A stretch of 64,000 bases of DNA from Komarekiella atlantica HA4396-MV6 (lineage in GTDB: Bacteria; Cyanobacteriota; Cyanobacteriia; Cyanobacteriales; Nostocaceae): assembly GCA_019359395.1 (NCBI GenBank), contig JAHHHK010000040.1, positions 1 through 64,000 of the forward strand, given 5' to 3'. Made by a program: the position numbers and the translations under genes. Positions 6,880-64,000 of this stretch are shown here, piece after piece. Positions within the stretch are counted from its first letter, which is position 1. The number at the start of each line of letters is the position of its first letter. The notes below the pieces were generated by a model. The model was not told the origin of the DNA, searched no databases, and worked only from the letters and a program-made list of their open reading frames with translations.

Positions 6880-8391
6880 ATGACCACTCCACCAGCACTT
6901 GCAACCGCGCAGATTGACGCGGTGCGAACTCACATAAAAAAAACTTGGAAAACTTTGACGCGATCGCACGAACACTTATTGCAATCTGCAAAGGATACCA
7001 AACTAGACCACAAAACAGAGACTCCCTGGATTGTCTATATTTCGCCCCAAGAAGACTGTCCTAATGTTCAAACTGTGTTGGAGCGATCGCTGTCTCCCAA
7101 AGAGATGGAACAAATGCAAATTCGCACTCTACCAACTGAAGTTGAGGCGATTCGAGATCACGGATTGCTGTATCTACCAGGGCCTTATGTCGTACCAGGT
7201 GGGCGCTTTAACGAAATGTATGGCTGGGACAGCTACTTTATTTTGTTGGGGCTATTGCGAGATGAGGAATGGGATCTAGCAAAAAGTCAAGTCGATCAAC
7301 TGCTGTACCAAGTGCAGCATTACGGCACTATTCTCAATTCCAACCGGACTTACATGCTGTCGCGATCGCAGCCTCCTGTCCTCAGTATGATGGTTCTAGC
7401 GCTATTCCAGCATACCCAGGATGAAGAGTGGCTGAGGTCAGCTGTACCACTACTTGAGCAATTTTACTACTATTGGGTAGTACCGCCTCACCTAAATCCC
7501 GCCACAGGTTTGTCCCGATTCTACGCCTTTGGGGAAGGCCCCGCGCCGGAAGTTTTATTTTCTGAGCAGGATGATCAAGGACGAAGCCACTATGATCGCG
7601 TCAAGGAATACTATAAAACGTTTGAGGTTGACGATTATGATGTCAGTCTTTACTATGACCGGGAAAATGACGAACTAACCAACCTGTTTTACAAAGGCGA
7701 TCGCACTATGCGTGAGTCTGGTTTTGATATCACTAACCGATTTGGCCCTTTCAGTGTTGATATCCTCCATTACGCTCCCGTGTGTCTCAACAGTTTGCTG
7801 TATCAGATGGAGCAAGATCTGGCGGAAATTCACACTGTGCTAGGTAACGAAGAACTAGTGCAGCAATGGCACGAGCGTGCAGATATCCGCCGCGATCGCA
7901 TTGATCAGTGTCTCTGGGATGAAGAACAGGGGCTATATCTGGATTATCACTTCCAAAGCGGAGAACGCCGCCGTTACGAGTTTGCCACCACATTCTATCC
8001 TTTATGGATAGGACTAGCCTCAGATGCACAAGCCAAACGCGTCGCTGAAAACCTCTCTTTGTTTGAAGCACCAGGAGGAATCTTTACTAGTACTCGCGTC
8101 ACAGGTAATCAATGGGATGCTCCCTTCGGTTGGGCTCCGCTGACGCTAATTGCAGTTTTGGGACTCCACCGCTATGGATATCATAAAGAGGGCGATCGCA
8201 TTGCTCAAAAGTTCCTTGTCATGGTAATTGAGGAATTTAAGCGTCACAAAACCTTAGTCGAAAAATACGATGTTGAACACTGTTCTGCCAACGTCTCCGA
8301 TGAAATCTGTTTTGGCTACAGCTCTAACGAAGTTGGTTTTGGCTGGACTAATGGAGTTATTTTAGAACTTCTAGCAGCATTGAATTTATAA
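6880..8391 (+). CDS. treH: Alpha,alpha-trehalase (GH37-like)
   Basis: 503 aa; 'PGPYVVPGGRFNEMYGWDSYFILLGLL', 'QWDAPFGWAPL', 'EKYDV'; follows treZ-treY as in other Nostoc/Anabaena. Confidence 0.92.
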   Translation: MTTPPALATAQIDAVRTHIKKTWKTLTRSHEHLLQSAKDTKLDHKTETPWIVYISPQEDCPNVQTVLERSLSPKEMEQMQIRTLPTEVEAIRDHGLLYLPGPYVVPGGRFNEMYGWDSYFILLGLLRDEEWDLAKSQVDQLLYQVQHYGTILNSNRTYMLSRSQPPVLSMMVLALFQHTQDEEWLRSAVPLLEQFYYYWVVPPHLNPATGLSRFYAFGEGPAPEVLFSEQDDQGRSHYDRVKEYYKTFEVDDYDVSLYYDRENDELTNLFYKGDRTMRESGFDITNRFGPFSVDILHYAPVCLNSLLYQMEQDLAEIHTVLGNEELVQQWHERADIRRDRIDQCLWDEEQGLYLDYHFQSGERRRYEFATTFYPLWIGLASDAQAKRVAENLSLFEAPGGIFTSTRVTGNQWDAPFGWAPLTLIAVLGLHRYGYHKEGDRIAQKFLVMVIEEFKRHKTLVEKYDVEHCSANVSDEICFGYSSNEVGFGWTNGVILELLAALNL

Positions 8392-8403
8392 CACAACACA
8401 ATT

Positions 8404-8456
8404 TAGTAGAGACGTTGCATTGCTGTAGAGACGTTGCATTGCAACGTCTCTACATA
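8404..8456. repeat. Palindromic repeat 'gtagagacgttgcattgcaacgtctctac' with a preceding half copy
   Basis: Same palindrome at 19465 and 28002. Confidence 0.8.
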
Positions 8457-9049
8457 ATGTCGTCAAGTTTGAGTTGCAAATTTGGAAACAAATAGGATGT
8501 AATTGCATCTCCTAAGCGATATTGTCGCTGCTGATACGTATTGTTAATTAATTGGCAGACTGTAAAAGTAGGTTGTTTGGGATTACCAATAAATTGCAAG
8601 CCTCCTAAACCACGAAAGTCTATAATCCAGTATTCTGGAATATTTAGAAAAGCATATTCTTCGACTTTTCTAGCATAATCATCTTGCCAATTTGTGCTAA
8701 CAACTTCGGCAACAAGCTTAATTGTATTGCCATTACAAATAATCGGCTCTTTTTGCCAAAGCGGTTCGTTGTTAAGTTCTGCTTTATCTAAAACAATGAC
8801 ATCAGGACGTAGTGCTGTAGCTTCCGCAGCCGGTGGCTTAATTAAACAATTTTTTGGAATCAGACAATTTAAATTAGAACGAAGAATTTCGACATAGATT
8901 CTACCAGCAATACTTCCTGAAACTTCTTCATGAGGGCCTGTAGGCTCTATGTCGCGTAGTTCTCCGTCAATGAGTTCGTAGCGGGGATTGTTCCCATATT
9001 CGGTTATGAATTGCTCGAAAGTTAACAGTTTAGGTGGAGTGTAAGTCAT
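8450..9049 (-). CDS. Uma2 family (DUF820) putative restriction endonuclease
   Basis: 'TFEQFITEYGNNPRYELIDGELRDIEPTGPHEEVSG', 'RPDVIVLDKAE', 'EYAFLNIPEYWIIDFRGL'. Confidence 0.92.
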   Translation of the reverse strand: MTYTPPKLLTFEQFITEYGNNPRYELIDGELRDIEPTGPHEEVSGSIAGRIYVEILRSNLNCLIPKNCLIKPPAAEATALRPDVIVLDKAELNNEPLWQKEPIICNGNTIKLVAEVVSTNWQDDYARKVEEYAFLNIPEYWIIDFRGLGGLQFIGNPKQPTFTVCQLINNTYQQRQYRLGDAITSYLFPNLQLKLDDIM

Positions 9050-9173
9050 CGGTCATGTTTTCAGATCAGACCTTAATCTGTTATTGGTTTATTTTAACGC
9101 CGTTATGGTGGAGCGATCGGACTTAGAGACTTACAATTACAGCAATTTTCAAATGAATAGACTACATTTTTAC

Positions 9174-9314
9174 CTCACGCAGAGAGAAGTTTGAGCGGCG
9201 GCTTCCGCCGTTGGCGTAGCCCGCCGTAGCGAAAAGTTCTGTAGGCGGGTTTCCCGCCGTAGGAAACTTTTCAAGACAGGCATCAAAACTTTGGTGGACG
9301 CGGAGACGCAGAGA
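9174..9314 (-). repeat. ~140-bp palindromic repeat, inverted copy of 14210-14351
   Basis: Reverse complement matches 14210-14351 with about 3 mismatches by direct reading. Confidence 0.9.
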
Positions 9315-9373
9315 AAGAAGAATGCTCTGGTGCTGTGGTTTAAATAAATGAAAACTGCTGTAAATACACATAA

Positions 9374-10615
9374 TTAATGCGAAAGCTCCCAATCGCGGAG
9401 CATCGAAATAGCATCTTTGTACAAAGACAGATCCACCTGATGAACTTCCATTCCCTGGCCGATTCCTTCTAGCAGGGTGATTGTCAAATTTCCACCTAAG
9501 TGTTCACGAAACTCCGTGAGTCCTCTAAATAAACAATGAGGATGATCTGGTTGATGTAATTGCTCTGCCAATTCAGATACGTACAAAGTAAATCCTAAGT
9601 TCTTGAGTGTGCCTAAAATCCTCTTCCATTCTGATTGCAACAGTAGCCCTGTCAAATATGAATAGGTGCTATCTAAAGCAATGCCGATCGCTACAGCTTC
9701 ACCATGACGTAAACTGTAATTTGTTAAATGTTCCAGTTTGTGAGCAGCCCAGTGTCCAAAATCCAAAGGACGCGATGAACCCATTTCAAAAGGATCACCA
9801 CTACCAGCAATATGCTCTAAATGCAACTGGGAACACCGATAGATTAGCTTTTCCATGATGTCCATGTCTCGGTTAGCCAATTTATCGGCATAAGTCATAA
9901 TGAAATCAAAGAAATCTGCATCTTTAATCAGCGCCACTTTCACCGCTTCGGCAATACCCGATCGCCAATCTCGATCATCAAGAGTAGTTAGAAAATCTAA
10001 GTCATTTAATACAGCATAAGGTGGCATAAATGTGCCAAGAAAGTTTTTCTTGCCGAAGGCATTGATTCCGTTTTTTACCCCTACACCTGAATCATTTTGC
10101 CCTAACACTGTAGTCGGTACTCGCAACAACCGAATTCCTCGGTGAGCAGTCGTTGCTGCATATCCTGCCATATCTAGTACAGCTCCACCTCCAATTGCTA
10201 AAACATAGGAGTGGCGACACAATCCAGCTACATTGATGCTCTGATGAATTTGCTCAATGAATTTTGGTTCATTTTTAACTGTTTCTCCCCCCGCAACTAT
10301 TATCGGCTCACTACTCAAAGTGAATACGTCTCCATAACTCTGGGCGTAAACTGATAATTTTTTAAGCAATTCATCTTGATGTTTTAATAGTCCCCCATCT
10401 ACTACTGCTACCACTTTCTTGGGAGCTGTCTCTCCATTTGCAGCAATCACCTGTGCTAATAAAGGATTGTCTAACTGAAACAAACCTCTAGTAAAGTGAA
10501 CATCATAGTTAAAGGTGACGCGGACACATTGGTTTAGTGGTTTTAGGCTAAGATTAGTTTTTTGTTTAGTGTACATTTTCATAGTATTAATTTTTAAATA
10601 ACTGTGACTGTGCAA
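9374..10615 (-). CDS. eboD: EboD-type sugar phosphate cyclase / 3-dehydroquinate synthase-like protein
   Basis: 'AIGGGAVLDMAGYAATTAHRGIRLLRVPTTVLGQNDSGVGVKNGINAFGKKNFLGTF', 'DFGHWAAHKLEHLTNYSLRHGEAVAIGIALD'; adjacent to eboA. Alternative start at MKMYTKQ. Confidence 0.85.
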   Translation of the reverse strand: MHSHSYLKINTMKMYTKQKTNLSLKPLNQCVRVTFNYDVHFTRGLFQLDNPLLAQVIAANGETAPKKVVAVVDGGLLKHQDELLKKLSVYAQSYGDVFTLSSEPIIVAGGETVKNEPKFIEQIHQSINVAGLCRHSYVLAIGGGAVLDMAGYAATTAHRGIRLLRVPTTVLGQNDSGVGVKNGINAFGKKNFLGTFMPPYAVLNDLDFLTTLDDRDWRSGIAEAVKVALIKDADFFDFIMTYADKLANRDMDIMEKLIYRCSQLHLEHIAGSGDPFEMGSSRPLDFGHWAAHKLEHLTNYSLRHGEAVAIGIALDSTYSYLTGLLLQSEWKRILGTLKNLGFTLYVSELAEQLHQPDHPHCLFRGLTEFREHLGGNLTITLLEGIGQGMEVHQVDLSLYKDAISMLRDWELSH

Positions 10616-11027
10616 TTAAAATCGCAAGTTTACACGCAGAAAAATATTCCAGAATTTGAATCTGGAAATGATTTAGAAGTAGTAAATTATGGGTTATAAA
10701 TGTTTTCTACCCAGCGAATAAAGTTAAAAAATAACATTTATTCGCAAATTTATTTGACGCCTAAATTTTTACCACGATGGTTGTAACAGATATCATTATT
10801 GCATAAAGTCCAAAGTTTATTATTAAGCTAACTCTAGATTTACTATAGTTAAAATGACATCTTTACAGTATCTTATTTAAAGTGGGTAGATTTTTATAGA
10901 TTCAGTAAATATATTATCTTAATAATATATTCTGTAACTCGTATAATAAGAAGGTATCAATTTTGATGGCAAGTTTTATACTTGTATTCTTAGGGAAAAC
11001 CGTTGAAAAACTTCTCCTGAATTAATC

Positions 11028-11909
11028 ATGAGTAGGGTAAACAAGTTACTGCATCACTGGCTGTTACAGTCTGCTTCGGAGAAAGCTATTGCCTGGTTAG
11101 AACAGAAACAGGCGCAGATTGCTAGCGGCGCTGCTGAGCGAGTGTTTTTCACGGCTTTTAGTGCTGTGCCGCGTTATCTAGGTAAAGAGGATTTGCAGCT
11201 AACATCCCAAGACTTGAAAGCAGCGCAGGAAGAACTCCCCGGTTGGTTTCCTGGTCATTGGAGTGTAGATCAAGCAGGTCGTACACTCTTGCTTTTAGCT
11301 TTGCCCCATGAGAATGCACAGGAGTACGTGCGATCGCTTGATAAAGTCTTCACTACTGCCGATATGGGGGAGTTAGTTGTCCTTTATCAAAGTTTGCCTT
11401 TGTTGCCACATCCAGAGTTACATCGCCAACGCGCTGCTGAGGGAATTCGCAGCAATATGAGTAATGTTTTCCAATCTATAGCACTACGAAATCCTTACCC
11501 TGCGGATTATTTAGACGATGCTGCTTGGAATCAGATGGTGCTGAAGGCGGTATTTGTAGGCAGTCCTTTGCATCTAATCTGGGGTCTAGATCGCCGTGCT
11601 AACCCAGAATTAGCAAAAATGTTGACAAACTATGCTCATGAACGTTGGGCAGCCAAACGCTCAGTTACGCCAGAACTTTGGCGATCTGTAGGGCGGTTTG
11701 CCGATACTGCAATAATTGCTGATCTAGAAAAAGTGCTAGCTGATGGGGACATAGCCGAGCAAGAAGCAGCAGCACTAGCTTGTGCTCAATCGCCTTTACC
11801 CGAAGCGCAAGCATTACTCTCCCGTTACCCAGATTTACAGTCATCTGTTCAAAAAGGTCATCTGACTTGGAGCAGTTTCAGCCGCGATCGCCTCTTTGTC
11901 CATAAGTGA
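11028..11909 (+). CDS. eboA: EboA domain metabolite-traffic protein
   Basis: EboA-like sequence 'FFTAFSAVPRYLGKEDLQLT...LPGWFPGHWSVDQAGRTLLLLALP' and synteny. Confidence 0.88.
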   Translation: MSRVNKLLHHWLLQSASEKAIAWLEQKQAQIASGAAERVFFTAFSAVPRYLGKEDLQLTSQDLKAAQEELPGWFPGHWSVDQAGRTLLLLALPHENAQEYVRSLDKVFTTADMGELVVLYQSLPLLPHPELHRQRAAEGIRSNMSNVFQSIALRNPYPADYLDDAAWNQMVLKAVFVGSPLHLIWGLDRRANPELAKMLTNYAHERWAAKRSVTPELWRSVGRFADTAIIADLEKVLADGDIAEQEAAALACAQSPLPEAQALLSRYPDLQSSVQKGHLTWSSFSRDRLFVHK

Positions 11910-11967
11910 AAGGGCTGGGGAAGGAGCACAGGAGCACGGGAACAGAGGGGAAAAATGGAAAAATTTC

Positions 11968-12056
11968 TTCCCAATCCCCAGTCCCCATTGCCCCTTATCC
12001 CCAGAGGGGGCCCCGAGTTCCCCAGTCCCCAGTCCCCAGTCCCCAATCCCTAATCT
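11968..12056. repeat. 'ccccagt' heptanucleotide STRR-like tract
   Basis: 'cccagtccccagtccccagtccccaatcccta' tandem heptamers between eboA and eboB. Confidence 0.75.
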
Positions 12057-12075
12057 CCAATCATAAAACTACATC

Positions 12076-12984
12076 ATGATGTACATCGATCCTCACATTC
12101 ACATGTGTTCCCGTACTACCTACGATTACCTAGTAATGCGAGAATATGGTATTGTCGCCGTCATTGAACCAGCCTTTTGGTTAGGACAACCCCGAACTAA
12201 CGCCGGCACATTCAAAGATTACTTCAGCAGTCTTGTAGGATGGGAACGGTTTCGTGCCAGTCAGTTTGGCATCCAACACTACTGCACAATCGGCTTAAAC
12301 CCAAAAGAAGCTAACAACGAGGCGCTAGCAGCAGAAGTTATAGAACTGCTACCACTTTATGCTTGTAAAGAGGGAGTTGTTGCCATTGGCGAAATTGGCT
12401 ATGACGACATGACAGAAGCAGAGGATAAATACTTTTGTCAACAATTAGAATTAGCCAAAGAATTAGATATGCTGGTGCTAATTCATACTCCTCATCGCAA
12501 TAAGAAAGAGGGAGCCAGCCGCAGTATGGATCGCTGCATCGAATATGGCTTAGATCCCTCACAAGTAGTTATTGACCACAACAACGAGGAAACCGTAGAG
12601 GAAGTACTAGAACGCGGTTTTTGGGCAGCTTTCACAATTTACCCAAAGACGAAAATGGGTAACGCCAGAATGGTGGAGATTGTCCGTCAATATGGACGAG
12701 AACGCATCATTGTAGATAGTAGTGCTGATTGGGGTATTAGCGATCCTTTAGCAGTCCCGAAAACGGCTCAGTTGATGTTAGAAAGGGGCATTCCTGAAGA
12801 ACATGTACGAGCAGTTTGTTATGAAAATGCCCTAGCTGCTTATAGTCAAACTGGGCAAATGCAAGCATCAGATTGGCTTAATTCTGCATCCGTTGATCAA
12901 CGTCAGCAGTTCAATGGCAATTCTGTATTACGGGGACAGGAACCAGGAATCAACTCGACTTCAGATTATGTGCTCATTGAGTAG
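12076..12984 (+). CDS. eboB: EboB, TatD-family metal-dependent hydrolase
   Basis: 'MYIDPHIHMCSRTTYDYLVMREYGIVAVIEPAFWLGQPR', 'AIGEIGYDDMTEAEDKYF', 'IVDSSADWGISDPLAVPK'. Confidence 0.88.
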   Translation: MMYIDPHIHMCSRTTYDYLVMREYGIVAVIEPAFWLGQPRTNAGTFKDYFSSLVGWERFRASQFGIQHYCTIGLNPKEANNEALAAEVIELLPLYACKEGVVAIGEIGYDDMTEAEDKYFCQQLELAKELDMLVLIHTPHRNKKEGASRSMDRCIEYGLDPSQVVIDHNNEETVEEVLERGFWAAFTIYPKTKMGNARMVEIVRQYGRERIIVDSSADWGISDPLAVPKTAQLMLERGIPEEHVRAVCYENALAAYSQTGQMQASDWLNSASVDQRQQFNGNSVLRGQEPGINSTSDYVLIE

Positions 12985-13245
12985 AAAATCATATATGCAC
13001 ATCAATTCAAATAAGTAGCTAAGTAGGAGAAAATTTTTCATCAATACTTAGTGTTTTTTTGCCTTGGTGAACCAGCGCTCTCCGGCGGGTTTCCCAACCT
13101 AGGCGACTGGTGTTCGCCTTACAGCCCTTTGGGCATCCTACGGCAGGCGTGCCGGAGGCATCACCCGGAGGGTGGTTCAAGATTTTTTAAACACTAAGAC
13201 ACTAAGACACGAAGAAAAAGGTTTTTATTGGAAGGAGGTAAATGA

Positions 13246-14172
13246 ATGAATGTTGCAAGCTTTAATCTTCAAAGCTGGCGGGGTTATTTAGAATTGATGC
13301 GTCCTGCTAATATTGTTACCGCTTGGGCGGATATTCTTGTTGGCTTTGCTGCCTCTGGCGGGATTCTTTTTGATAAATTAATCAATGGACAGGCAATTAC
13401 AACTCTAATTCCATTAGCTTGGTTGTTATTAGCCACAACTGGTTTATATGGTGGTGGTATAGTTTTTAATGATGTTTTCGATGCTGAATTAGATGAAAAA
13501 GAGCGACCAAGTAGAGCAATTCCTAGTGGTCGCGTGTCTCGACAAAGTGCCACTTTCTTGGGAAGTATGCTGTTTGCAATTGGGATTGTGGCGGCTTTTC
13601 AAGTCTCTTTGTTGAGTGGTGCGATCGCTATCATCATAACTTTTTCAGCACTACTGTATGACTCACTTGCTAAACATCATCCTTTTTTTGGCCCTTTGAA
13701 TATGGGTTTGTGCCGTGGTAGTAACTTACTCTTAGGTGTAAGTGCTGTACCAGCAATAGTATGGGAACGTTGGTATTTAGCTTTAATTCCTGTTCTTTAC
13801 ATTGCTGGTATCACTGCAATTAGTCAAGGAGAAGTTCACGGAGGCAAGAAAATTACAGGAGTATTAGCACTACTCTTAATTGCAATAGTCTTGACGGCAG
13901 TTTTAGCCTTGGGATTGTTAGAAAATTATGCAGTTCTAGCTGCATTACCATTTGCTATTTTATTAGCCATTCGAGTAGTTCCTAATTTTATCCAAGCTGC
14001 ACGTGAACCAGTACCCGACAAAATCCGAACTGCTGTAAAAGTAGGCGTGTTATCCCTAATCGTATTAGATGCAACTGTTGCATCTGGTTTTGCTGGTTTG
14101 TATTACGGCTTATTAGTGCTAATCTTGCTCCCAATTTCGATGAAACTAGCACAACTATTTGCCGTTACCTAA
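13246..14172 (+). CDS. eboC: EboC, UbiA-like prenyltransferase
   Basis: 'WRGYLELMRPANIVTAWADILVGFAASGG', 'GGGIVFNDVFDAELDEKERPSRAIPSGRVS'. Confidence 0.9.
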   Translation: MNVASFNLQSWRGYLELMRPANIVTAWADILVGFAASGGILFDKLINGQAITTLIPLAWLLLATTGLYGGGIVFNDVFDAELDEKERPSRAIPSGRVSRQSATFLGSMLFAIGIVAAFQVSLLSGAIAIIITFSALLYDSLAKHHPFFGPLNMGLCRGSNLLLGVSAVPAIVWERWYLALIPVLYIAGITAISQGEVHGGKKITGVLALLLIAIVLTAVLALGLLENYAVLAALPFAILLAIRVVPNFIQAAREPVPDKIRTAVKVGVLSLIVLDATVASGFAGLYYGLLVLILLPISMKLAQLFAVT

Positions 14173-14209
14173 AATCAGACCAAGAGATTATCTATACAAA
14201 CTCTAAAAA

Positions 14210-14351
14210 CTCTCTGCGTCTTTGCGCCCACCAAAGTTTTGATGCCTGTCTTGAAAAGTTTCCTACGGCGGGAAACCCGCCTACAGAACTTTTCGCTACG
14301 GCGGGCTACGCCAACGGCGGAAGCCGCCGCTCAAACTTCTCTCTGCGTGAG
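14210..14351 (+). repeat. ~140-bp palindromic repeat between eboC and eboE
   Basis: 'cctacggcgggaaacccgcctacagaacttttcgctacggcgggctacgccaacggcggaagccgccgctcaaacttctctctgcgtgag'; inverted copy at 9174-9314. Confidence 0.9.
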
Positions 14352-14359
14352 ATTTAACC

Positions 14360-15586
14360 ATGAAGATTACAACAGATAGCAACCTTCACTTAACTTATTG
14401 CACTAATATTCATCCTGGCGAAAGTTGGTTAGAAGTTTTCGCCAATTTAGAAAAACATATTCCCGAATTAAAGTCACGTTTATCGCCTAAAGTACCGTTC
14501 GGAATTGGTTTGAGGTTAGCAGATGTAGCCGCAAAACAGCTTTTAGAAGGTAATAACTTGATTCAATTCCAAACGTGGCTAACTCAACAAGATTTATATG
14601 TTTTTACCTTAAATGGATTTCCTTACGGGGGATTTCATCGACAGGTGGTAAAAGACCATGTTTATGCACCAGATTGGTCAACTCAGGAACGACTGAATTA
14701 TACGTTAAGCTTGACAAAAATTTTAGCAACTCTTCTACCACAAGGTCTTGATGGTGGAATTTCTACACTACCTTTATCTTATAAACCTTGGTGGGAAAAA
14801 GACCAAGCGAGTTGTGAAACAGTTCTGAAAAATAGCTGTTTTAACATAGCATCAGTTGTAGCAGAAATGATTCGGATCCACGAAACAACAGGAAAATTGC
14901 TGCATATCGATTTAGAGCCTGAGCCTGATGGATTAATTGAAAATACTTCAGAAGTAATTGATTTCTTCCAAAATTGGTTATTACCGATTAGCGGTAATTA
15001 TTTATCAGAGCAATTAAATATTGAACAGAATTTAGCAGAAACTAAATTGCTAGAACATGTTCGCATTTGCTATGATACCTGTCATTTTTCAGTTGAATAT
15101 GAAGAACCAAAGTCTGTATTTACTCGTTTGCAATCAGTTGGAATTAAGATTGGCAAGATTCAAATCAGTGCGGCGATTAAAGTAAAAATACCTGCTGAGG
15201 TTGAGAAGCGTAGCTTAATAGTTGCTCGTCTACGTCCTTTTGCTGAATCTACTTATCTTCACCAAGTAATAGAACGTCGCAGTGACGGTACGCTATATCA
15301 TTATTCTGACTTAATAAATGCGCTACCACATTTAGAGCAATCTTTAGCTGAAGAATGGCGCACTCACTTCCATGTGCCAATTTTTATTCATGATTATCAA
15401 ATTTTACAGTCTACGCAAGATGATATTGCAACTGTTTTACAGTTAATTAAAGCAAATAATGCTTGTCAACATTTAGAAATTGAGACTTACACTTGGGATG
15501 TATTGCCATCAGAAATGAAAATAGATTTGCTGACTTCTATTCAGCGGGAATATGAGTGGGTGATAAAGTTAATTCGTAATTCGTAA
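14360..15586 (+). CDS. eboE: EboE metabolite-traffic protein (xylose-isomerase-like TIM barrel)
   Basis: 'LTYCTNIHPGESWLEVFANLEKHIPELKSRLSP...GIGLRLADVAAKQLL', 'TLNGFPYGGFHRQVVKDHVYAPDW'; ebo synteny. Confidence 0.9.
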   Translation: MKITTDSNLHLTYCTNIHPGESWLEVFANLEKHIPELKSRLSPKVPFGIGLRLADVAAKQLLEGNNLIQFQTWLTQQDLYVFTLNGFPYGGFHRQVVKDHVYAPDWSTQERLNYTLSLTKILATLLPQGLDGGISTLPLSYKPWWEKDQASCETVLKNSCFNIASVVAEMIRIHETTGKLLHIDLEPEPDGLIENTSEVIDFFQNWLLPISGNYLSEQLNIEQNLAETKLLEHVRICYDTCHFSVEYEEPKSVFTRLQSVGIKIGKIQISAAIKVKIPAEVEKRSLIVARLRPFAESTYLHQVIERRSDGTLYHYSDLINALPHLEQSLAEEWRTHFHVPIFIHDYQILQSTQDDIATVLQLIKANNACQHLEIETYTWDVLPSEMKIDLLTSIQREYEWVIKLIRNS

Positions 15587-49731: not shown

Positions 49732-50856
49732 TTAATGATTGGCTACCTTGCTAGCAACCGACCAAAATGGATAGTCTGTATATCCCTTATCAGTACCACC
49801 ATAAAAGGTTGTCGGATCTGCTTCATTCAGTGGTGCATTTAAAGCCAAGCGTCTGGGTAAATCTGGATTTGATATAAATAAAGTGCCAAAGGCAACTAAA
49901 TCCGCTTCTTTTTTTGCCAATACAGCATTACCTTTTTCACGGGTATAACCGCCATTGACGATGAGTGTACCTGTAAAGCGATCGCGCAAATGACTTGTTG
50001 GCACAATCGTCCCACCATGTCTTATGTCTGCGTCTGTGGCTTCAAACAGATGTAAATATGCCAAATCAAACCTGTTCAACGCTTGAGCCGCATAACCAAA
50101 AGTTTCTAGGGGATTAGAGTCACGCATGTCATTAAAGGTTCCACTGGGGGAAAGGCGCACCCCTACTCGGTTAGAATCCCACACACTAGTTACCGCCTCT
50201 GTCACTTCCAACAAAAATCGTGCTCGATTCTCAATTGTACCGCCATATTTATCTGTGCGTTGATTAGTACCATCCCGGAGGAATTGGTCAATTAAATAAC
50301 CATTAGCTGCGTGAATTTCTACCCCATCAAACCCAGCTGCTAGTGCATTTGCAGCGCCCTGACGGTACTGTTCCACAATTCCCGGTATTTCCGAAGTTTC
50401 CAAAGCACGGGGAGTAACAAAAGGTTTTTTGCCCTCAAATGTTGATGCCTCACCTTTGGGTGCAATAGCAGAAGGTGCTACAGGTAAAGCTCCATCCGGT
50501 TGTAAATCAGGGTGAGAAATCCTACCTACATGCCATAGTTGCAGAAAAATTTTCCCTCCTTCTTGATGCACAGCATCCGTTACCAACCTCCAACCCGCAA
50601 TCTGTTCTGGTGAATGAATTCCTGGTGTAAGAGGATACCCTTGCCCTTGAGGAGCAACCTGAGTTGCTTCCGCAATAATCAGCCCAGCCGAAGCGCGTTG
50701 GACGTAGTAAGTAGCGTTAAGTTGGCGTGGAACGTTTCCCTCACCTGCTCTGTTTCGAGTTAGGGGAGCCATAACTATACGGTTGGATAGTTCCAAATTA
50801 CCCAACTGATAAGGAGAAAATAAGTTGATCTCAGTATTCATTGGTTGTATCTCCAA
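49732..50856 (-). CDS. Old Yellow Enzyme-family alkene reductase
   Basis: 'LFSPYQLGNLELSNRIVMAPLTRNRAGEGNVPR', 'LQLWHVGRISHPDLQPDGALPVAPSAI', 'FDGVEIHAANGYLIDQFLRDGTNQRTDKYGG'. Confidence 0.95.
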   Translation of the reverse strand: MEIQPMNTEINLFSPYQLGNLELSNRIVMAPLTRNRAGEGNVPRQLNATYYVQRASAGLIIAEATQVAPQGQGYPLTPGIHSPEQIAGWRLVTDAVHQEGGKIFLQLWHVGRISHPDLQPDGALPVAPSAIAPKGEASTFEGKKPFVTPRALETSEIPGIVEQYRQGAANALAAGFDGVEIHAANGYLIDQFLRDGTNQRTDKYGGTIENRARFLLEVTEAVTSVWDSNRVGVRLSPSGTFNDMRDSNPLETFGYAAQALNRFDLAYLHLFEATDADIRHGGTIVPTSHLRDRFTGTLIVNGGYTREKGNAVLAKKEADLVAFGTLFISNPDLPRRLALNAPLNEADPTTFYGGTDKGYTDYPFWSVASKVANH

Positions 50857-56960: not shown

Positions 56961-57497
56961 TCATTCCACAAGGGCAAGTAGTTTGTCAATATCATGAGAG
57001 AGAAATCGTTGAGCACTGGTGATGGAATGATGACCATTTCGACGAAGTATATTGAGAGCGCTCGCTCTCAATATGGAAAGATTTGCAGGAGCATTACCCA
57101 AACAAATTTTTGAATCATCCTGCTTGAGAACCATGTGCTTAACCCAGTGAAGGCTATTTTCGATACTCCAATGACCGCGAATACCGTAAGCGAATTCTTT
57201 GGCTGTAGAAATTAAGTTACTAATGTAACAGGCAATCTAATAATATGGTTTACCCGCTCTGGTTCCAGTTCTTTCAACCCGAATTAAGGACTTAATTCCA
57301 ACCCAGGATAATTCAATTCCATCCAAATCATGAAAAACTTCTACAGTCCGTGTTGCGAGTCGATTACGAGTTTCTTCAGTCTCAATATAACAACTTGTAG
57401 GCTTTGTTTGTGCAGCAATACGTTGAATATGACGATGTAGTTTCGGCTGATTATCTTTAACGGCAATCACGTAATCGTTGCCACTGTTTGAGCGGGA
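56961..57497 (-). pseudogene. ISAs1-like transposase C-terminal remnant, frameshifted and 5'-truncated
   Basis: 'SGNDYVIAVKDNQPKLHRHIQRIAAQTKP...' then, in another frame, 'AKEFAYGIRGHWSIENSLHWVKHMVLKQDDSKICLGNAPANLSILRASALNILRRNG'. Confidence 0.8.
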
Positions 57498-57757
57498 ATT
57501 ACTTCGCAGCTTTGTAGTTTTCCTGAGCCATCAAAAATAGCAGCTATCTCTTGGTAGAGAATACTTTTATTTGTTGGTGCTTGGTTAAGAGGTAATAAAT
57601 TACCGCTATTTAATTCATGCTCCCAGTCGAAAATTATTTGATTTAGACTTCCCTTTTTAAAGTCAAGGTTTTTCTCAATGATGGCGGCGATATGGATAAC
57701 ACCATGTTCTTTGGAATAAACCTGCTTGTTTGCTTGTAACCATTCAGGTTGGGTCAT
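57467..57757 (-). CDS. Hypothetical ORF running into the transposase remnant
   Basis: 96-aa ORF, 3' end chimeric with IS sequence. Confidence 0.3.
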   Translation of the reverse strand: MTQPEWLQANKQVYSKEHGVIHIAAIIEKNLDFKKGSLNQIIFDWEHELNSGNLLPLNQAPTNKSILYQEIAAIFDGSGKLQSCEVIPAQTVATIT

Positions 57758-57939
57758 AAAAAGTTACCTGCTCGCTGTTTTAGCAGGTAGGCGTTAGTCC
57801 AAAGTAGTGGTTTTGGTTATTCCCACGTTAGCTATTGAATCCAACTGGAAAATTGCTAAGTATTAACTGTCAGGACACAATAAAAGTGTAATTTTTTTCG
57901 GTGCATCTTAATTTTGTTTCTTCCATCTATAACGGAAGC

Positions 57940-58032
57940 GATCGCCCGTGAACAGCTGTACTGTCCTCCGGTTGTGGTGGGATCGGCAAGGATGGTGAGG
58001 CAAGAACCAAAAAGCCAGAAAGATTGTGTCAT
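57940..58032 (-). pseudogene. Possible truncated cupin N-terminal remnant
   Basis: 'MTQSFWLFGSCLTILADPTTTGGQ' resembles the start of small cyanobacterial cupins; similarity ends abruptly. Confidence 0.4.
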
Positions 58033-58099
58033 GAGATTACTCCTATTGAATGAATGTGTAATAGTGCGGTAGTCGTTCATGAGACAAAATAGGAATGAA

Positions 58100-60052
58100 T
58101 CAATACACCGGAGTTTGACTAATCACATTTACATTCGGATCGAGATTGTCGCCAGTGCTGTAGATATAATTAAATGCACCTCGATCATCAAGAAGATGCG
58201 ATCGCAAAAATAATCCACTCCAGCGTCCGATCGTCTCAGTTGCCGCGATCTGGCCTAAGGTGGGTCTGTTTGGCTCCCGCTCAGGGTTGTCAACGTTTGT
58301 GATGCCATAGTGGTTCGCACCTTCTACGGTAACTGAGACTTTGGGCGGGTTGAGAATTTGATCGTAAGTTGTTTGACTATTGCTCGATGGAATCACGCCA
58401 TCCAAACTGCCCTGAATCAGCCCGACTGCAATTCCTTCGTTATCGAGCGGCAAAAATTCTCCAGTTAGCTGATCGCGAAAGCTAGTGCCGTAGAAAATAC
58501 CTGCCTGCAACTGGGGCGGCAATGTGTAGTCTTGGGAGCAAATTCCGGGTATGCAAATCTCGTCCTGTGTTGCGCCTAATCCCACGGCTCCGCCAAACGA
58601 GTGCCCCAGGAGTCCTAGTGTTTCGGTATCGGCAATTTCAAAAATCGGTGAAGTCGGATCGGCATCTTCCACTTTCATCTGTTCCAGCACCTCATTCACT
58701 TGCCCTTGCTCAGAAAGTAGACCCGTCACCGTTTCACCATTGGGTGCAGTTAGCGTCCGCTGATTGTTGGGAACCACGACCACAAATCCATAGCTGGCGA
58801 CTTTTTCTGCATAGTTAGAATAGTCTGCTTTATCGACCAAAGCACCTTGCAGCATCAGCGCGATCGGTAGTTGATCCGGTGTTGAATTTGGCAGCACTGG
58901 ATAATACACATCGGCTGGATCGCCATCTGCGGCAATTGTGGTTGTGTAGTGCTTCACCTTGTTATAAATCGGGTCGGGATCGAAGCATGTCTTTTGCTCT
59001 AAATTCAACCGCAGTACCTCTCCCTGTCCTGCAACAAAGCCTTTATTGGAAATGTAAATGTCACCGTCAGCACCAATTTCTAGACCTGTCGGATTCGTTA
59101 GTTCATCGTCTGCGATCGTCGTGCGAGTTTTACCATCGGGAGACACGTAAATCAGCGCACCTGCATCACTGCCATTCAAAATGCCATCCGCATCATATTC
59201 CAGAACATATAAACCGCCAGCGTCATCAAAGGCTAGATCGGTGATATTCGTAAATCCTCCTGCATAGACTTCCGGTTGACCTTCTTCATTGATGCGATAC
59301 ACTTGTGCTGTCTCTGCTTGAAACGGAAACCCAGTTAATTCGCCGACATAGAGAGCGTCATCCGGGCCAACGGCGACTGAGGTGGGTACAGACTGCCGCA
59401 CCACTGCCTCACCCGTGAGCGGATCGGTTGTGGTACGAGTTGGAAAGACTGTTTCTAGAGTCACTTCGCCGCCAAAGGCTTGCTGAGAGAGCAAATCATT
59501 AGCACCTGCATCAATGATGTATGCGGTATTGTCTTTAATCAGCAAGTCATAGAGGTTGGTAATGACATCTTGCCCATCGGGGTTGTTGTTTTGTTCGTAA
59601 GCGCCAAAATCCCGCAGCCTTGTCCAGCCAGCACCGCCGTCAAAGTTATTGATCGCAATTAACTGGCTAAAATCAGGAACTTGTAGCACGTCATCTCGAT
59701 TAGCTGGATTGCTGGCAAGACCCACGATCGCATAGGCGTTTCCATAGGCATCAAACTCAATATCACTGACACCTGATGCATCCGATCCATCGGGTAATGC
59801 CAGCGACGGTAGTCCGGTTACAACTTGTTCTGCAACACCGTTTTGAATTCGAGTAATCGCACCCGTTGCACCATAGAACAAAAACGCGCCCGGTTGACTG
59901 GGAGACGGAATACTAGCACCTGTTCCCCCTCGTCCGGCTTCGGCAACATACAGCGCCCCATCTGGGCCAAAGCTCAGCTTGCGCGGACTATCCAGACCTG
60001 ATGCTAGCACTTCAATTTCTGATATCTGTGGCATTTTTACTGTTTCAGACAT
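58100..60052 (-). CDS. ScyD/ScyE-like beta-propeller fused to C-terminal alpha/beta hydrolase (chlorophyllase/PAF-AH-like)
   Basis: N-terminal 'VLASGLDSPRKLSFGPDGALYVAEAGRGGTGASIPSPSQPGAFLFYGATGAITRIQNG'; C-terminal 'LGLLGHSFGGAVGLGATQDEICIPG' nucleophile elbow. ORF extends to 60163, start at MSETVKMPQ preferred. Confidence 0.85.
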   Translation of the reverse strand: MSETVKMPQISEIEVLASGLDSPRKLSFGPDGALYVAEAGRGGTGASIPSPSQPGAFLFYGATGAITRIQNGVAEQVVTGLPSLALPDGSDASGVSDIEFDAYGNAYAIVGLASNPANRDDVLQVPDFSQLIAINNFDGGAGWTRLRDFGAYEQNNNPDGQDVITNLYDLLIKDNTAYIIDAGANDLLSQQAFGGEVTLETVFPTRTTTDPLTGEAVVRQSVPTSVAVGPDDALYVGELTGFPFQAETAQVYRINEEGQPEVYAGGFTNITDLAFDDAGGLYVLEYDADGILNGSDAGALIYVSPDGKTRTTIADDELTNPTGLEIGADGDIYISNKGFVAGQGEVLRLNLEQKTCFDPDPIYNKVKHYTTTIAADGDPADVYYPVLPNSTPDQLPIALMLQGALVDKADYSNYAEKVASYGFVVVVPNNQRTLTAPNGETVTGLLSEQGQVNEVLEQMKVEDADPTSPIFEIADTETLGLLGHSFGGAVGLGATQDEICIPGICSQDYTLPPQLQAGIFYGTSFRDQLTGEFLPLDNEGIAVGLIQGSLDGVIPSSNSQTTYDQILNPPKVSVTVEGANHYGITNVDNPEREPNRPTLGQIAATETIGRWSGLFLRSHLLDDRGAFNYIYSTGDNLDPNVNVISQTPVY

Positions 60053-60107
60053 AATTTTCTTCCTTATTTTAAGTCGCGATCGTCCATGTTCATGCGAGCC
60101 TGGACAC

Positions 60108-60467
60108 CTAAACAGGTTCCATATACAAGCGTGCCCACTCGATTTGATCGGCTGATATGCCAAGACTGCTCACTCCACGCATCCCAAACGGTGTGCCATC
60201 GCGACGAGTGCTTAACCAATGCCACTCAGCCCAAGCTGTGTCACCCTCAACTGCCGAACGAAGCAACTCTGAGTGAAAGTCTGGGATGTCGTGGAACATG
60301 GCAGACCAATTCTTACGGACATGCTCAACTCCGTGTACAGCCTTCTCAAGATGGGCTGGCTGACCACCCTGAAAGTTAGGTGTAAAACAGGCTAAAAACG
60401 CTTCCAGGTCATGTGCGTTCTGTGCTTTTTGCAGTCGCTCTATGACAATGCTCTGACGGGTTTTCAT
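60108..60467 (-). CDS. NTF2/SnoaL-like protein, copy 1
   Basis: 'RLQKAQNAHDLEAFLACFTPNFQGGQPAHLEKAVHGVEHVRKNWSAMFHDIPDFHSELLRSAVEGDTAWAEWHW'. Confidence 0.85.
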   Translation of the reverse strand: MKTRQSIVIERLQKAQNAHDLEAFLACFTPNFQGGQPAHLEKAVHGVEHVRKNWSAMFHDIPDFHSELLRSAVEGDTAWAEWHWLSTRRDGTPFGMRGVSSLGISADQIEWARLYMEPV

Positions 60468-60559
60468 GATTTTTCCTGTGAGTGCTACATATAGCGGTAA
60501 AAAAATGAACTTGTTTCGATGTCAGGTTGTGTTTTGAATGAGGTGTGGACAAATGCTCC

Positions 60560-61933
60560 CTATGGTGTGAGATGTCCAACTGTTGAACGAAATATATCGT
60601 CAGGATCGTATCTCCGTTTGAGGTCGAGCAAGCGTTCATAATTCGACCCGAAGGCAAGCGGAACCCGCTCCTGCTCTTGCTCATCCAGGAGACTGATATA
60701 TCCCCCTTTGAAAGCGAATGGTGCAAGTGCCTGCGAGATGTTCTGTGCCCATTGAATGTGCCGCCGATCTTCGTCTTTTGACTGAGGTTCCCAGGCTGCA
60801 ATTAACTCAACCATTAGATGATCCTGACGCAGTGCAAAAGCCGTCTCAGACACACCCACACGACTCGCGGCTCCATGAAAGTTATGAATGTTGATCATCG
60901 AAAACGGGGAAGGTAGTGGCAACCCCTGTTCGATTAGCGCCTCGATTGTCTCAGTTTGGAAACCCTTGAGTGACTGGGTTTGCAGGTAGTAATGGCGACC
61001 TTTCGGAGTAAACGCATCTGCACCATGAATCAGTGCGTGATACGTGACAGGTTGCACCTGATCGACCAGTACAGTACCAAAGGTTCGCAGGGGGGCGATC
61101 GCCTCCTCACCTGCTTCTAGAGAACCACAATAAGTAGGTGAAAGCAACAAAACCGTCTGACCGTCTGGCGTTTGGATGAATCCAGATTGAATCGTCAATT
61201 CATCGGGTGCGGTGGCGATAAACTCGTTGAAACGGTGTAACACTGCTCTCGCCTGCTCCAGAGGATACAGCAGCATCCCTGATAACACCGTCGTCTGTGG
61301 ATGCAGGCGAAACTCCAGGGAAACCACAACGCCAAAGTTGCCACCGCCGCCGCGCAGCCCCCACAGCAAGTCTGGGTGTTCTTCAGCGTTGGCTCTCACA
61401 AGTTGTCCATCGGCAGTGACGACTTGGGCTGACAGCAGGTTATCGGCGACCAGTCCATAAGCACCGATGAGTGAACCATAGCCTCCCCCCAGGGTAAGTC
61501 CTGTCATGCCAACGCTGGAGATAGTCCCTGTGGCTGTTGCTAACCCATATTGCTGTGCTGCTTCGATCAGGTCGCCAGCTGTTGCTCCACCTTGAATTTT
61601 GGCTGTGCGTGTGTCCGGATTAATGGTGACGGCTCTCATCTGCGACAAATCGATCGCAACGCCATTCTCAAACAGCGATCGTCCAAAAATCTCATGTCCT
61701 GCACCACGAACTGAGAGTGGCAATCCCTGCGATCGTGTCCAGCGAATGGTATGAATGACATCTTCCACAGTCAAGCAACGAGCGATCGCGGCGGGTCGAG
61801 TCTTCACTCTGCCGTTCCAGAGTTGGCGCACCTGTTCATAGGCAGCGTCATCCGGGAGAAGAAGCTGATCTCCTCTGAGTACTGCTGCAAGTTCGTTGAA
61901 CAAAGTCCTGTTCTGACTAGGCGTAATTGTCAT
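60560..61933 (-). CDS. FAD-binding (BBE-like) oxidoreductase
   Basis: 'GLPLSVRGAGHEIFGRSLFENGVAIDLSQMRAVTINPDTRTAKIQGGATAGDL', 'LTLGGGYGSLIGAYGLVADNLLSAQVVTADG', 'NYERLLDLKRRYDPDDIFR'. Confidence 0.93.
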   Translation of the reverse strand: MTITPSQNRTLFNELAAVLRGDQLLLPDDAAYEQVRQLWNGRVKTRPAAIARCLTVEDVIHTIRWTRSQGLPLSVRGAGHEIFGRSLFENGVAIDLSQMRAVTINPDTRTAKIQGGATAGDLIEAAQQYGLATATGTISSVGMTGLTLGGGYGSLIGAYGLVADNLLSAQVVTADGQLVRANAEEHPDLLWGLRGGGGNFGVVVSLEFRLHPQTTVLSGMLLYPLEQARAVLHRFNEFIATAPDELTIQSGFIQTPDGQTVLLLSPTYCGSLEAGEEAIAPLRTFGTVLVDQVQPVTYHALIHGADAFTPKGRHYYLQTQSLKGFQTETIEALIEQGLPLPSPFSMINIHNFHGAASRVGVSETAFALRQDHLMVELIAAWEPQSKDEDRRHIQWAQNISQALAPFAFKGGYISLLDEQEQERVPLAFGSNYERLLDLKRRYDPDDIFRSTVGHLTP

Positions 61934-61990
61934 AGTTTCTCCTTATCCCTAGTGGTTTGTATCATTAATTCTGAGTGGTTAGCAGTGGTC

Positions 61991-62023
61991 AGATCCCCGA
62001 CTTATTGAAGAAGTTGGGGATCT
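61991..62023. repeat. Palindrome 'agatccccgacttattgaagaagttggggatct'
   Basis: Same family at 49512 and 46045. Confidence 0.85.
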
Positions 62024-62117
62024 AGCAACCCATCAAAATTAATGCGATAGACCAATAGTTTCAAATACTTAAATACGGCTTGGATCTGCTCTAAAACATA
62101 TTTGTGACAGAATCTGG

Positions 62118-62477
62118 TTACACAGGTTCCATATACAAGCGTGCCCGTTCAATCTGATCCGCTTGTATATCAAAAATGGTCACTCCGCGCATACCAAACT
62201 GCTTACCATCACGATGGGTGCCGAACCAATGCCACTCAGCCCAAGCTGTATCACCCTCAACTGCTGAACGAAGCAACTCTGAGTGAAAGTCTGGGACATC
62301 GTGGAACATGGCAGACCAATTCTTACGGACATGCTCAACTCCGTGTACAGCTTTCTCAGGATGGGCAGGCTGATCACCCTGAAAGTTAGGTGTAAAACAG
62401 GCTAAAAACGCTTCCAGGTCATGGGCGTTTTGTGCTTGTTGCAATCGCTCTATGATAATTCTCTGGCTAGATTTCAT
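62118..62477 (-). CDS. NTF2/SnoaL-like protein, copy 2 (ORF extends to 62513)
   Basis: Near-identical to 60108..60467 over the N-terminal two thirds. Confidence 0.85.
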   Translation of the reverse strand: MKSSQRIIIERLQQAQNAHDLEAFLACFTPNFQGDQPAHPEKAVHGVEHVRKNWSAMFHDVPDFHSELLRSAVEGDTAWAEWHWFGTHRDGKQFGMRGVTIFDIQADQIERARLYMEPV

Positions 62478-62531
62478 GATTTCTCGTTTGTTACCAATGC
62501 GATCGCTATCCATGTTAGAGCGATTGGTGGA

Positions 62532-62930
62532 TTACTTCAGTGCTGCTGTTGCCTCAATCTCAACCAATGTTTCTTTTGAGGCAAGTGAGGCAACGCCAAT
62601 GCCAGTAACAGCGGGGCGCGATTCTGCCAGAAATTGCGCGAGAATTGGTGCGATCGCCTCCATATGTTCTCCAAGTTCACCCCGGACATAGATGCGAAGG
62701 TGAAGCAAATTCTCTACAGAACTTCCCGCTGCATCCAAGACGATGGTTAGGTTAGTCAGCGCATTAGAGAGTTGACCCTCGACGGTATGGGAAGATACTT
62801 GATGGTTTGTATCCCAGTCAACTTGACCAGAAATGTAAACGATACCGCATCGGGTATCGATAACAGCATGGGACAGTCCGTGCGGTCTGCCATCATAACG
62901 TTGTGGCGGATTGATCAGTTGCTTTCTCAT
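62532..62930 (-). CDS. RidA/YjgF family protein (ORF extends to 62990)
   Basis: 'AVIDTRCGIVYISGQVDWDTNHQVSSHTVEGQLSNALTNLTIVLDAAGSSVENLLHLRIYV'. Confidence 0.9.
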   Translation of the reverse strand: MRKQLINPPQRYDGRPHGLSHAVIDTRCGIVYISGQVDWDTNHQVSSHTVEGQLSNALTNLTIVLDAAGSSVENLLHLRIYVRGELGEHMEAIAPILAQFLAESRPAVTGIGVASLASKETLVEIEATAALK

Positions 62931-62967
62931 GGTATCTATTGTGTAGGAAAGAGCGTTGTAATCGAAT

Positions 62968-63441
62968 TCACGCGATGAATTCGATGCCATACTTGGGGGC
63001 TGCTGCCAAAACTCGCTCGATCGCTTCCGGGGTGGCTGGGCGTGATGAAGCCTCTGGGTCGTCTACTGGAACACCGACTTCGGCAAAGTATTTCTCAATT
63101 CCCGCAGGCATATACCAAACCAACATCTTGGCGCGTTGGTTCGTGATGTTCTTAAAGGTATGCAGGTGTCCCTTCGGCGAATATAAGAAGGTTCCAGGAG
63201 TAGCAATCACAGTTTGATCGCCGAGTTGAAACTCCAGTTCGCCCTCTTGGATATAGAACGCTTCATCTTCTCGATGGTGAATGTGTGGCGGCGGCCCGAT
63301 TTCAGGATCAACTTGCAACTCGAAGAGCGTGTATTGCCCATTGGTATCTTCGCCCACTGCCTTGAAGGTAAGAATATCTCCTACAACTGAGAGGGAATGT
63401 CCTTGACCTGGCTTGAGCAATAGTTCACGAGAGGTAGTCAT
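62968..63441 (-). CDS. Cupin domain protein
   Basis: 'PPHIHHREDEAFYIQEGELEFQLGDQTVIATPGTFLYSPKGHLHTFKN'. Confidence 0.92.
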   Translation of the reverse strand: MTTSRELLLKPGQGHSLSVVGDILTFKAVGEDTNGQYTLFELQVDPEIGPPPHIHHREDEAFYIQEGELEFQLGDQTVIATPGTFLYSPKGHLHTFKNITNQRAKMLVWYMPAGIEKYFAEVGVPVDDPEASSRPATPEAIERVLAAAPKYGIEFIA

Positions 63442-63589
63442 TGTATTTCTCCTAATAGTTCAACAGTTAGTCAGGATTGAGTCTTTGCTGATTGCTGTTC
63501 GATGTATCTAAAGTGTAGTGAGTTGAAGTACCTGATTTCTTTCAGATTCTTACGATGATTTGTCAGATGCCTGTGATGAAGTTTCGCAG

Positions 63590-64000
63590 CTAGTCGCGCC
63601 CTGCGACAATAATCTTTTCTGCTAGACCGACTGGATTAGAAAACATCACCTCATGACCACCCGGCATTTGCACGAGCCGAAATAGTCCCAAGCGACTAGA
63701 CATCCTGGGATGCCAACCCCATTCCCCTTGAGGTAAGGCATTGTCTTCTGTACAGTAGAGGTAACTTCTAGGGATGGGCAGCGAGTAAAACTGCTTCAGG
63801 TCTAATTTGTCAATAAACGGTTGATACGGTTCAGGTGACAATTGTGCATAACTCGATTTCGCTAGGTCGAGGTCAGCATCGTTGAGGAATGTTTCTCGCC
63901 AAATATCCAACGGCAGCATCATCGTATTATCGCCCGATGCTTCAACTAGATTGTCGATGAGCTCTTGAGTGGGAAATGAAAGGTTATCTCTGAGGTTCTC
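63590..64000 (-). CDS. Alpha/beta hydrolase, partial (5' end beyond window)
   Basis: Open frame continues to the window edge; 'RSYLYCTEDNALPQG...LFRLVQMPGGHEVMFSNPVGLAEKI', typical C terminus of EstC/salicylate-esterase-like hydrolases. Confidence 0.75.
   Translation of the reverse strand, partial: ENLRDNLSFPTQELIDNLVEASGDNTMMLPLDIWRETFLNDADLDLAKSSYAQLSPEPYQPFIDKLDLKQFYSLPIPRSYLYCTEDNALPQGEWGWHPRMSSRLGLFRLVQMPGGHEVMFSNPVGLAEKIIVAGRD

Follow-up and report, generated by a model that had tools for sequence, protein, structure and literature searches.

Among the closest known parallels to the system reported here is XylS at the Pm promoter of the TOL plasmid, where an AraC-family activator is paired with two direct repeats next to the promoter (PMC5481539). 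We analyzed a 64,000-nucleotide stretch of Komarekiella atlantica HA4396-MV6 (contig JAHHHK010000040.1, C36 here, positions 1 to 64,000; this whole stretch is the window), in which a run of seven minus-strand genes spans 58100-64315 of the contig and an 81-base promoter-like element lies upstream of the cupin gene of that run. Our interpretation, to which we assign a probability of about 0.72, is that the seven genes are a segment of an AraC-activated, horizontally moving detoxification or catabolic island regulon, whose promoters have spread as an araC end together with its trailing promoter. Like XylS/Pm, which serves aromatic catabolism, the system combines an AraC-family regulator, two direct repeats by a promoter, and plasmid carriage; the likeness is one of layout and not of sequence, since the repeat sequence differs. 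Unlike XylS/Pm, it is cyanobacterial, has many dispersed promoters per island rather than one operon promoter, and has araC directly followed by a regulated promoter.

Quinone and electrophile regulons, such as that of MhqR, place a dioxygenase, reductases, and hydrolases under one regulator, and the islands described below hold a similar set. However, MhqR of Staphylococcus aureus is a MarR-type repressor with other genes (PMC6798810); the analogy is functional only.

The promoter-like element

63499-63577, minus strand: promoter-like element of the regulon, 81 bases (own-genome model match, E 3e-19; alignment A1)
63563-63573, minus strand: distal repeat CAGGCATCTGA, identical to the proximal repeat at 8/11 positions and 21 bases upstream of it
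63542-63552, minus strand: proximal repeat TAAGAATCTGA, period 21 by profile self-comparison
63512-63517, minus strand: -10-like box TACACT, conserved in alignment A1, with a putative promoter role

The element occupies the intergenic space upstream of the cupin gene and consists of a period-21 direct repeat followed by the -10-like box. It was first noticed as a short recurring BLASTN match at this position when the window was compared with relatives, and a targeted search of the islands then in the data set gave more than 25 copies. Alignment A1 gives the consensus CACCATAAGAATCTGACAAAnCATCGTAAGAATCTGAAAGAAGTCAAGCATTAGAACTCAnTACACTTnAGATA. When the profile is compared with itself, the peak falls at a shift of 21, which corresponds to the TAAGAATCTGA repeat; TACACT begins 24 bases past the second (proximal) repeat; and column conservation concentrates in the repeats and the box. 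There is no good -35 box in the element, as might be expected of an activator-dependent promoter. Scans for consensus promoters and terminators gave site counts no higher than in shuffled sequences, and neither an Rfam match nor a conserved structure by alignment folding points to an RNA. The element also has no conserved stem, unlike the attC-type sites of integron arrays, although no search for an integrase was made.

We ran a sequence model built from the element on the 7.8-Mb genome of the strain and on 292 cyanobacterial genomes. Within the strain's genome, matches fell on three contigs only: the window copy on C36, four strong and two weak matches on C27, and two matches on C71. The best match on any other contig had an E value of 0.03. 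The element is carried by 59 of the 292 genomes, and these 59 fall in 37 of the 131 genera; a genome has as many as 15 copies, often with several on one contig. Of the 17 genomes that belong to the same family as the window, just 2 carry it; thus, its distribution is patchy. The stretches that we read contain 106 copies. Of these, 98 are followed by the start of a gene on the same strand, 3 would suit a gene in the opposite direction, and none lies inside a gene. The first downstream genes (n = 90) most often encode SnoaL/NTF2 proteins (18), short-chain dehydrogenases/reductases (SDRs; 12), alpha/beta hydrolases (7), Rid proteins (6), cupins (5), and TetR regulators (5); pirin, oxidase, AraC, and CAAX-protease-like genes follow with 3 each, and old yellow enzyme, azoreductase-type, and glutathione S-transferase (GST) genes with 2 each. 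These stretches were picked for holding elements or island genes; therefore, the census describes islands and is not an unbiased sample.

The AraC subfamily and the giant kinase

The element is closely tied to one subfamily of AraC proteins, which stands sharply apart from its paralogues (full-length matches of 274-642 bits versus 149 or less). Of the 292 genomes, 27 encode a member of this subfamily, and each of these 27 also has the element (Fisher P value of 5e-22, with kinship ignored). A same-strand element lies within 400 bases downstream of 39 of the 47 genes of the subfamily. At the loci read, its start lies a few bases at most from the araC stop codon, and the extended consensus opens with CTAA, which is the araC end. 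Thirty-one of the 106 elements directly follow an araC-type open reading frame, and 20 more, among them the element before the giant kinase on C71, are preceded by what is left of an araC C terminus where there is no intact gene (E ≤ 1e-6 for 17 of the 20). The window element has no araC tail and begins some 12 bases past the hydrolase stop codon.

These AraC proteins carry a C-terminal double helix-turn-helix (Pfam HTH_AraC and HTH_18), as AraC/XylS members do. Across 22 proteins, the DNA-binding domain is more conserved than the sensor domain (85% versus 62% identity). In the predicted structure (mean pLDDT of 74, a moderate value), a helical linker joins a cupin-type barrel to the DNA-binding domain; the PDB matches of the model are AraC-family regulators, including CuxR, ToxT, AraC, and BgaR. 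The paired direct repeats beside a promoter-like box are also the layout of AraC/XylS regulons.

A different regulator was considered as well. C27 carries a related one-strand array headed by genes for a 2366-aa kinase (Pkinase, AAA, GAF, several PAS, HisKA_3, and HATPase domains), a LuxR-type response regulator, and a DsbA-like protein. The element could be the target of such a response regulator paired with the giant sensor kinase, AraC being a mere neighbor. Kinase and regulator do head several arrays, and elements lie upstream of the kinase gene on C71 and in G116. However, stretches in G112, G270, G149, and G061 hold araC and elements without the kinase, and the element follows araC to the base. 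LuxR/NarL-type sites are usually inverted repeats. The direct-repeat layout found here is instead that of AraC/XylS (PMC5481539), and we consider control by the kinase pair in place of AraC unlikely.

Kinase-headed arrays tend to encode a short AraC of 107-144 aa that retains the DNA-binding part only (e.g., L114:19504-19854, L049:15915-16349, L048:14946-15350, L050:3680-4114, and L074:7959-8282), whereas arrays without the kinase encode a full-length protein of ~300 aa. C27 is an exception, with the kinase together with a full-length AraC. The kinase may replace the AraC sensor domain in kinase-headed arrays.

Genes of the window

63590-64315 on the contig (63590-64000 inside the window), minus strand: alpha/beta hydrolase, esterase-like (92% identical relative in Nostoc sp. 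MG11)
62968-63441, minus strand: cupin, the first gene downstream of the element (PF07883, E 1e-16)
62532-62990, minus strand: Rid-superfamily protein (PF01042, E 1e-18)
62118-62513, minus strand: NTF2/SnoaL-like protein, copy 2 (PF12680, E 2e-20)
60560-61933, minus strand: EncM-like FAD oxidase with FAD_binding_4 and BBE domains (Pfam; EncM in PDB, E 1e-80)
60108-60467, minus strand: NTF2/SnoaL-like protein, copy 1 (PF12680, E 5e-17)
58100-60052, minus strand: propeller-hydrolase fusion, 650 aa, with a ScyD/ScyE-type propeller and a PETase/chlorophyllase-like alpha/beta hydrolase
57856-58080, minus strand: remnant of a further cupin gene, 88% identical over 41 aa to the Desmonostoc cupin that follows the fusion
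57237-57757, minus strand: ISAs1-type transposase remnant at the left edge (NF033564, E 3e-9, match confined to 57237-57470)

A preliminary description of the window, made from the sequence alone, had listed seven minus-strand accessory genes in this order and had suggested that the locus may continue past 64000. Gene calls and Pfam and NCBIfam matches bear out the genes, their order, and their accessory, non-housekeeping nature; the folds are assigned with E values far better than chance (1e-6 to 1e-29 in Pfam, and 1e-108 for the NCBIfam ScyE family). The locus does run on to the right. The hydrolase gene is complete on C36, but the contig ends at 64532, 217 bases past the gene and 532 bases past the window; therefore, the locus cannot be traced further in that direction. 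The end of C36 showed no overlap with the end of the island on C71 when the two were compared; a single island split by assembly is possible. To the left, the locus extends beyond 58100 through the cupin remnant, which lies next to the ISAs1-type remnant, whose part at 57467-57757 has no family match and is assigned by adjacency. The two NTF2/SnoaL genes form a 300-base direct repeat (89% identical), one on each side of the oxidase gene. An imperfect inverted repeat at 61980-62060, between the oxidase and the second NTF2 gene, was set aside as a dispersed repeat because it has dozens of matches in the genome (~50, many on both strands). Separately, a lone old-yellow-enzyme-type gene lies at 49732-50856, some 7 kb away from the cluster, and has no element; it is 56% identical to a counterpart in the G086 island.

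The fusion starts with the ATG at 60052, which is kept in its Nostoc sp. MG11 and Desmonostoc relatives (89-94% identical); a TTG start at 60163 was rejected, as that frame would overlap the NTF2 gene. Its propeller half belongs to the ScyD/ScyE family (NF033206, 361 bits against a cutoff of 80). Unlike members of that family, it is fused to a hydrolase and lies outside any scytonemin cluster, no scyA-scyC-type genes having been found around the window. Elsewhere in the genome, contig C20 (L053, G000:C20:10001-29999) holds at ~8183-15395 two adjacent ScyD/ScyE-type genes followed by genes sized like scyC, scyB, and scyA, a probable scytonemin cluster of the same strain.

The hydrolase half scores barely above the cutoffs of PF12740 and PF07224 (PETase, Chlorophyllase). 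It has a GHSFG motif and a predicted triad of Ser485, Asp551, and His581 with a spacing of 66/30. In the cyanobacterial chlorophyllase OaCLH, the triad spacing is 67/32 and mutagenesis indicates Ser, Asp, and His as the residue types (PMC7802212). The two thus share the GHSFG motif, a near-equal triad spacing, and PETase-like relatives, including 6scd, and the fusion has the GHSxG motif and the Ser-Asp-His spacing reported for cyanobacterial chlorophyllase. Unlike OaCLH, the hydrolase here is a domain of a fusion protein, and the likeness is one of motif and spacing. A chlorophyll-breakdown island, which this domain might suggest, found no further support among the island genes. Two fusion homologues (L043:1710-3743 in G067:C90 and L047:8839-10791 in G116:C1) have neither the GHSxGG nor the NHYG motif, and their hydrolase domain is probably inactive.

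The oxidase had been described as resembling berberine bridge enzyme (BBE). It does contain FAD_binding_4 and BBE domains, but its nearest PDB match is EncM (full-length, E 1e-80), not the plant enzyme. As in EncM-type FAD oxidases (PDB 4xlo and relatives), similarity is full-length and the predicted FAD-linking histidine region is kept; unlike EncM, the window oxidase has no polyketide cluster beside it. Its relatives in six sampled genomes are 77-84% identical. A second oxidase subfamily (38-39% identical) recurs in L077, L085, L087, L084, and L078 as a unit with a nearby AraC-type gene, a cupin, and an SDR.

The protein previously named RidA is a Rid family member by its PF01042 match, but it scores under the TIGR00004 cutoff of NCBIfam. 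In an alignment to solved Rid proteins, it has a valine at the position of the RidA catalytic arginine, Arg105; therefore, we call it a Rid-superfamily member only. A PADLOC check for a defense role gave a weak Rid-domain match alone.

Related islands

The same genes keep company in other genomes. Desmonostoc vinosum HA7617 has, on one strand, a hydrolase, a quinone oxidoreductase (QOR)-like protein, a condensation-like protein, a cupin, a second hydrolase, the oxidase, a cupin remnant, the fusion, a cupin, a SnoaL protein, and a thioredoxin-reductase-like gene. The order in Nostoc sp. MG11 is SDR, hydrolase (92%), condensation-like, Rid (94%), NTF2, and fusion (94%), and that in Phormidium FACHB-886 is Rid, SDR, fusion, cupin, and hydrolase. 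Between Rid and NTF2, MG11 retains 125 bases of an NTF2 gene fused to 83 bases of the oxidase 3' end; therefore, MG11 once had the NTF2-oxidase-NTF2 arrangement of the window and has since lost it by deletion. The MG11 cupin is truncated as well, and that of Desmonostoc is broken. Genes come and go, but the co-occurrence of the set, judged from these comparisons, appears real, and the sets that are not intact persist as scars. The absence of co-occurrence, which the preliminary description had said would refute a functional cluster, is thus not what we find.

On C27, the array continues after its head genes with an SDR, a dehalogenase-like protein, a GST, a hydrolase, a QOR, and a copy of the fusion (83% identical, ending before the hydrolase part), and further on with an intradiol dioxygenase, a lipocalin-like protein, pirin, a cupin, SnoaL, Rid, and others. 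C71 carries a third island. Similar arrays to that of C27 are present in Nostoc CHAB 5824, Atlanticothrix, N. desertorum, Nostoc T09, Symplocastrum, Tolypothrix, and FACHB-892, and the enzymes are shuffled freely among islands: intradiol dioxygenase, quinone oxidoreductase, azoreductase, GST, dehalogenase-like hydrolases, and pirin. Part of C27 (L010:441-10111) holds three Rid-type genes, mutually 85-90% identical, within 10 kb, along with repeated NTF2 pieces, which looks like recent local duplication.

The preliminary description had suggested a small natural-product tailoring or xenobiotic-degradation locus, with no recognized polyketide synthase, nonribosomal peptide synthetase, or terpene synthase core in the window. 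SnoaL-like proteins and EncM-like oxidases are indeed common as tailoring enzymes, and two relatives have one condensation-like gene. However, no core synthase such as these was found among the labeled genes of any neighborhood read, membership varies from island to island, and reductases, hydrolases, dioxygenases, and GST dominate the gene set. A self-contained tailoring locus is quite improbable, its content being shuffled among islands of a catabolic or detoxification type. The earlier view therefore stands for a set of accessory, co-occurring genes and finds no support for a self-contained natural-product cluster. It did not include the promoter element common to the islands, their AraC and giant-kinase regulators, their presence on plasmids, or the two more islands of this genome.

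Movement and plasmid carriage

The element and island genes are found together on plasmid C of Trichormus variabilis ATCC 29413 and on pOSC7112.02 of Oscillatoria nigro-viridis PCC 7112, both typed as conjugative, and on a plasmid of Gloeocapsopsis dulcis. The Oscillatoria plasmid is collinear with the window over 840 bases (86%) covering the hydrolase and the element; a 136-base piece matching the cupin-Rid junction follows, and then a Rid gene. Eight enzymes of C27 are 92-99% identical to counterparts on this plasmid, whose host belongs to another taxonomic order. GyrB of this genome, in contrast, is 70-86% identical to that of 14 sampled genomes outside the family (Oscillatoria not among them). 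Lateral transfer of island genes is the simplest reading of these comparisons.

One alternative is that the element plays no part as a promoter and is a repeat involved in mobility or recombination, marking sites of insertion. It does travel with gene ends, as the araC tails show and as in MG11, where the 3' end of a hydrolase gene and the element stand before an SDR gene. However, its direction is fixed towards gene starts, it is absent within genes and from the remaining genome, and its conserved columns cluster in the repeats and the -10-like box; we regard a repeat of this kind as very improbable. That the seven genes are unrelated neighbors on one strand by chance, to which the differing membership of each island and the occurrence of the fusion alone might point, is extremely unlikely in view of the repeated co-occurrence, kept order, and deletion scars in the named relatives and on the Oscillatoria plasmid.

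Proposed mechanism and significance

The regulatory logic of the regulon is, at the level of sequence comparison, strongly supported. The sequences directly show the element with its direction and specificity, as well as its link to araC, the araC relics, the shuffled gene content, and the carriage on plasmids. We infer that AraC is the binding partner and an activator. A small molecule held by its sensor domain would let AraC occupy the two repeats 21 bases apart; bound AraC would then recruit polymerase to a weak promoter, and many short transcription units would fire together. In the window, a single element would drive a putative operon of cupin, Rid, NTF2, oxidase, NTF2, and fusion, because no other copy lies between these genes. 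In some islands, the giant kinase pair may add a second input. As for the copying process, the araC tails that precede some elements where araC itself is missing suggest that the araC 3' end, together with the promoter that trails it, was copied to sites ahead of other genes and that araC was then eroded. Tentatively, the enzymes may convert and remove a compound that is aromatic, quinone-like, or electrophilic in some other way, because the set comprises a dioxygenase, quinone and azo reductases, GST, dehalogenase-like and esterase-type hydrolases, Rid, pirin, and oxidases.

Several points weigh against this interpretation. The element occurs without a strong AraC match in 32 genomes, although the AraC search scored few candidates per genome and several of the 32 hold araC fragments. 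C36 itself has no araC gene, the nearest full copy in this genome being on C27, where an AraC protein is encoded at G000:C27:69460-70242, and the giant kinase and response regulator of some islands might serve these promoters too. Kinship among the element copies was left without phylogenetic correction. The fusion is also found outside islands (Dulcicalothrix and Calothrix NIES-4105), and the enzyme set fails to define one pathway.

AraC/XylS-type control of catabolism is well known. On the other hand, the literature searched, which covered cyanobacterial AraC regulons, the T. variabilis plasmid, such islands, and the repeat string, yielded no widespread cyanobacterial example with one 81-base element; the regulon appears so far undescribed. 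Element-bearing genomes make up about a fifth of those sampled. The element is thus a signature that delimits dozens of uncharacterized islands and predicts which genes are switched together. Two culture-collection strains, Trichormus variabilis ATCC 29413 and Oscillatoria nigro-viridis PCC 7112, have copies on plasmids, which opens the signal and the chemistry to study. It is conceivable, at somewhat less than even odds, that this is a mobile regulon that grows by tagging: the regulator 3' end and its promoter would land before incoming genes, the regulator would erode, and the gene would join, giving arrays under one chemical signal that are traded among cyanobacteria, partly on conjugative plasmids. 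The araC tail relics make such gain of members by the regulon directly testable.

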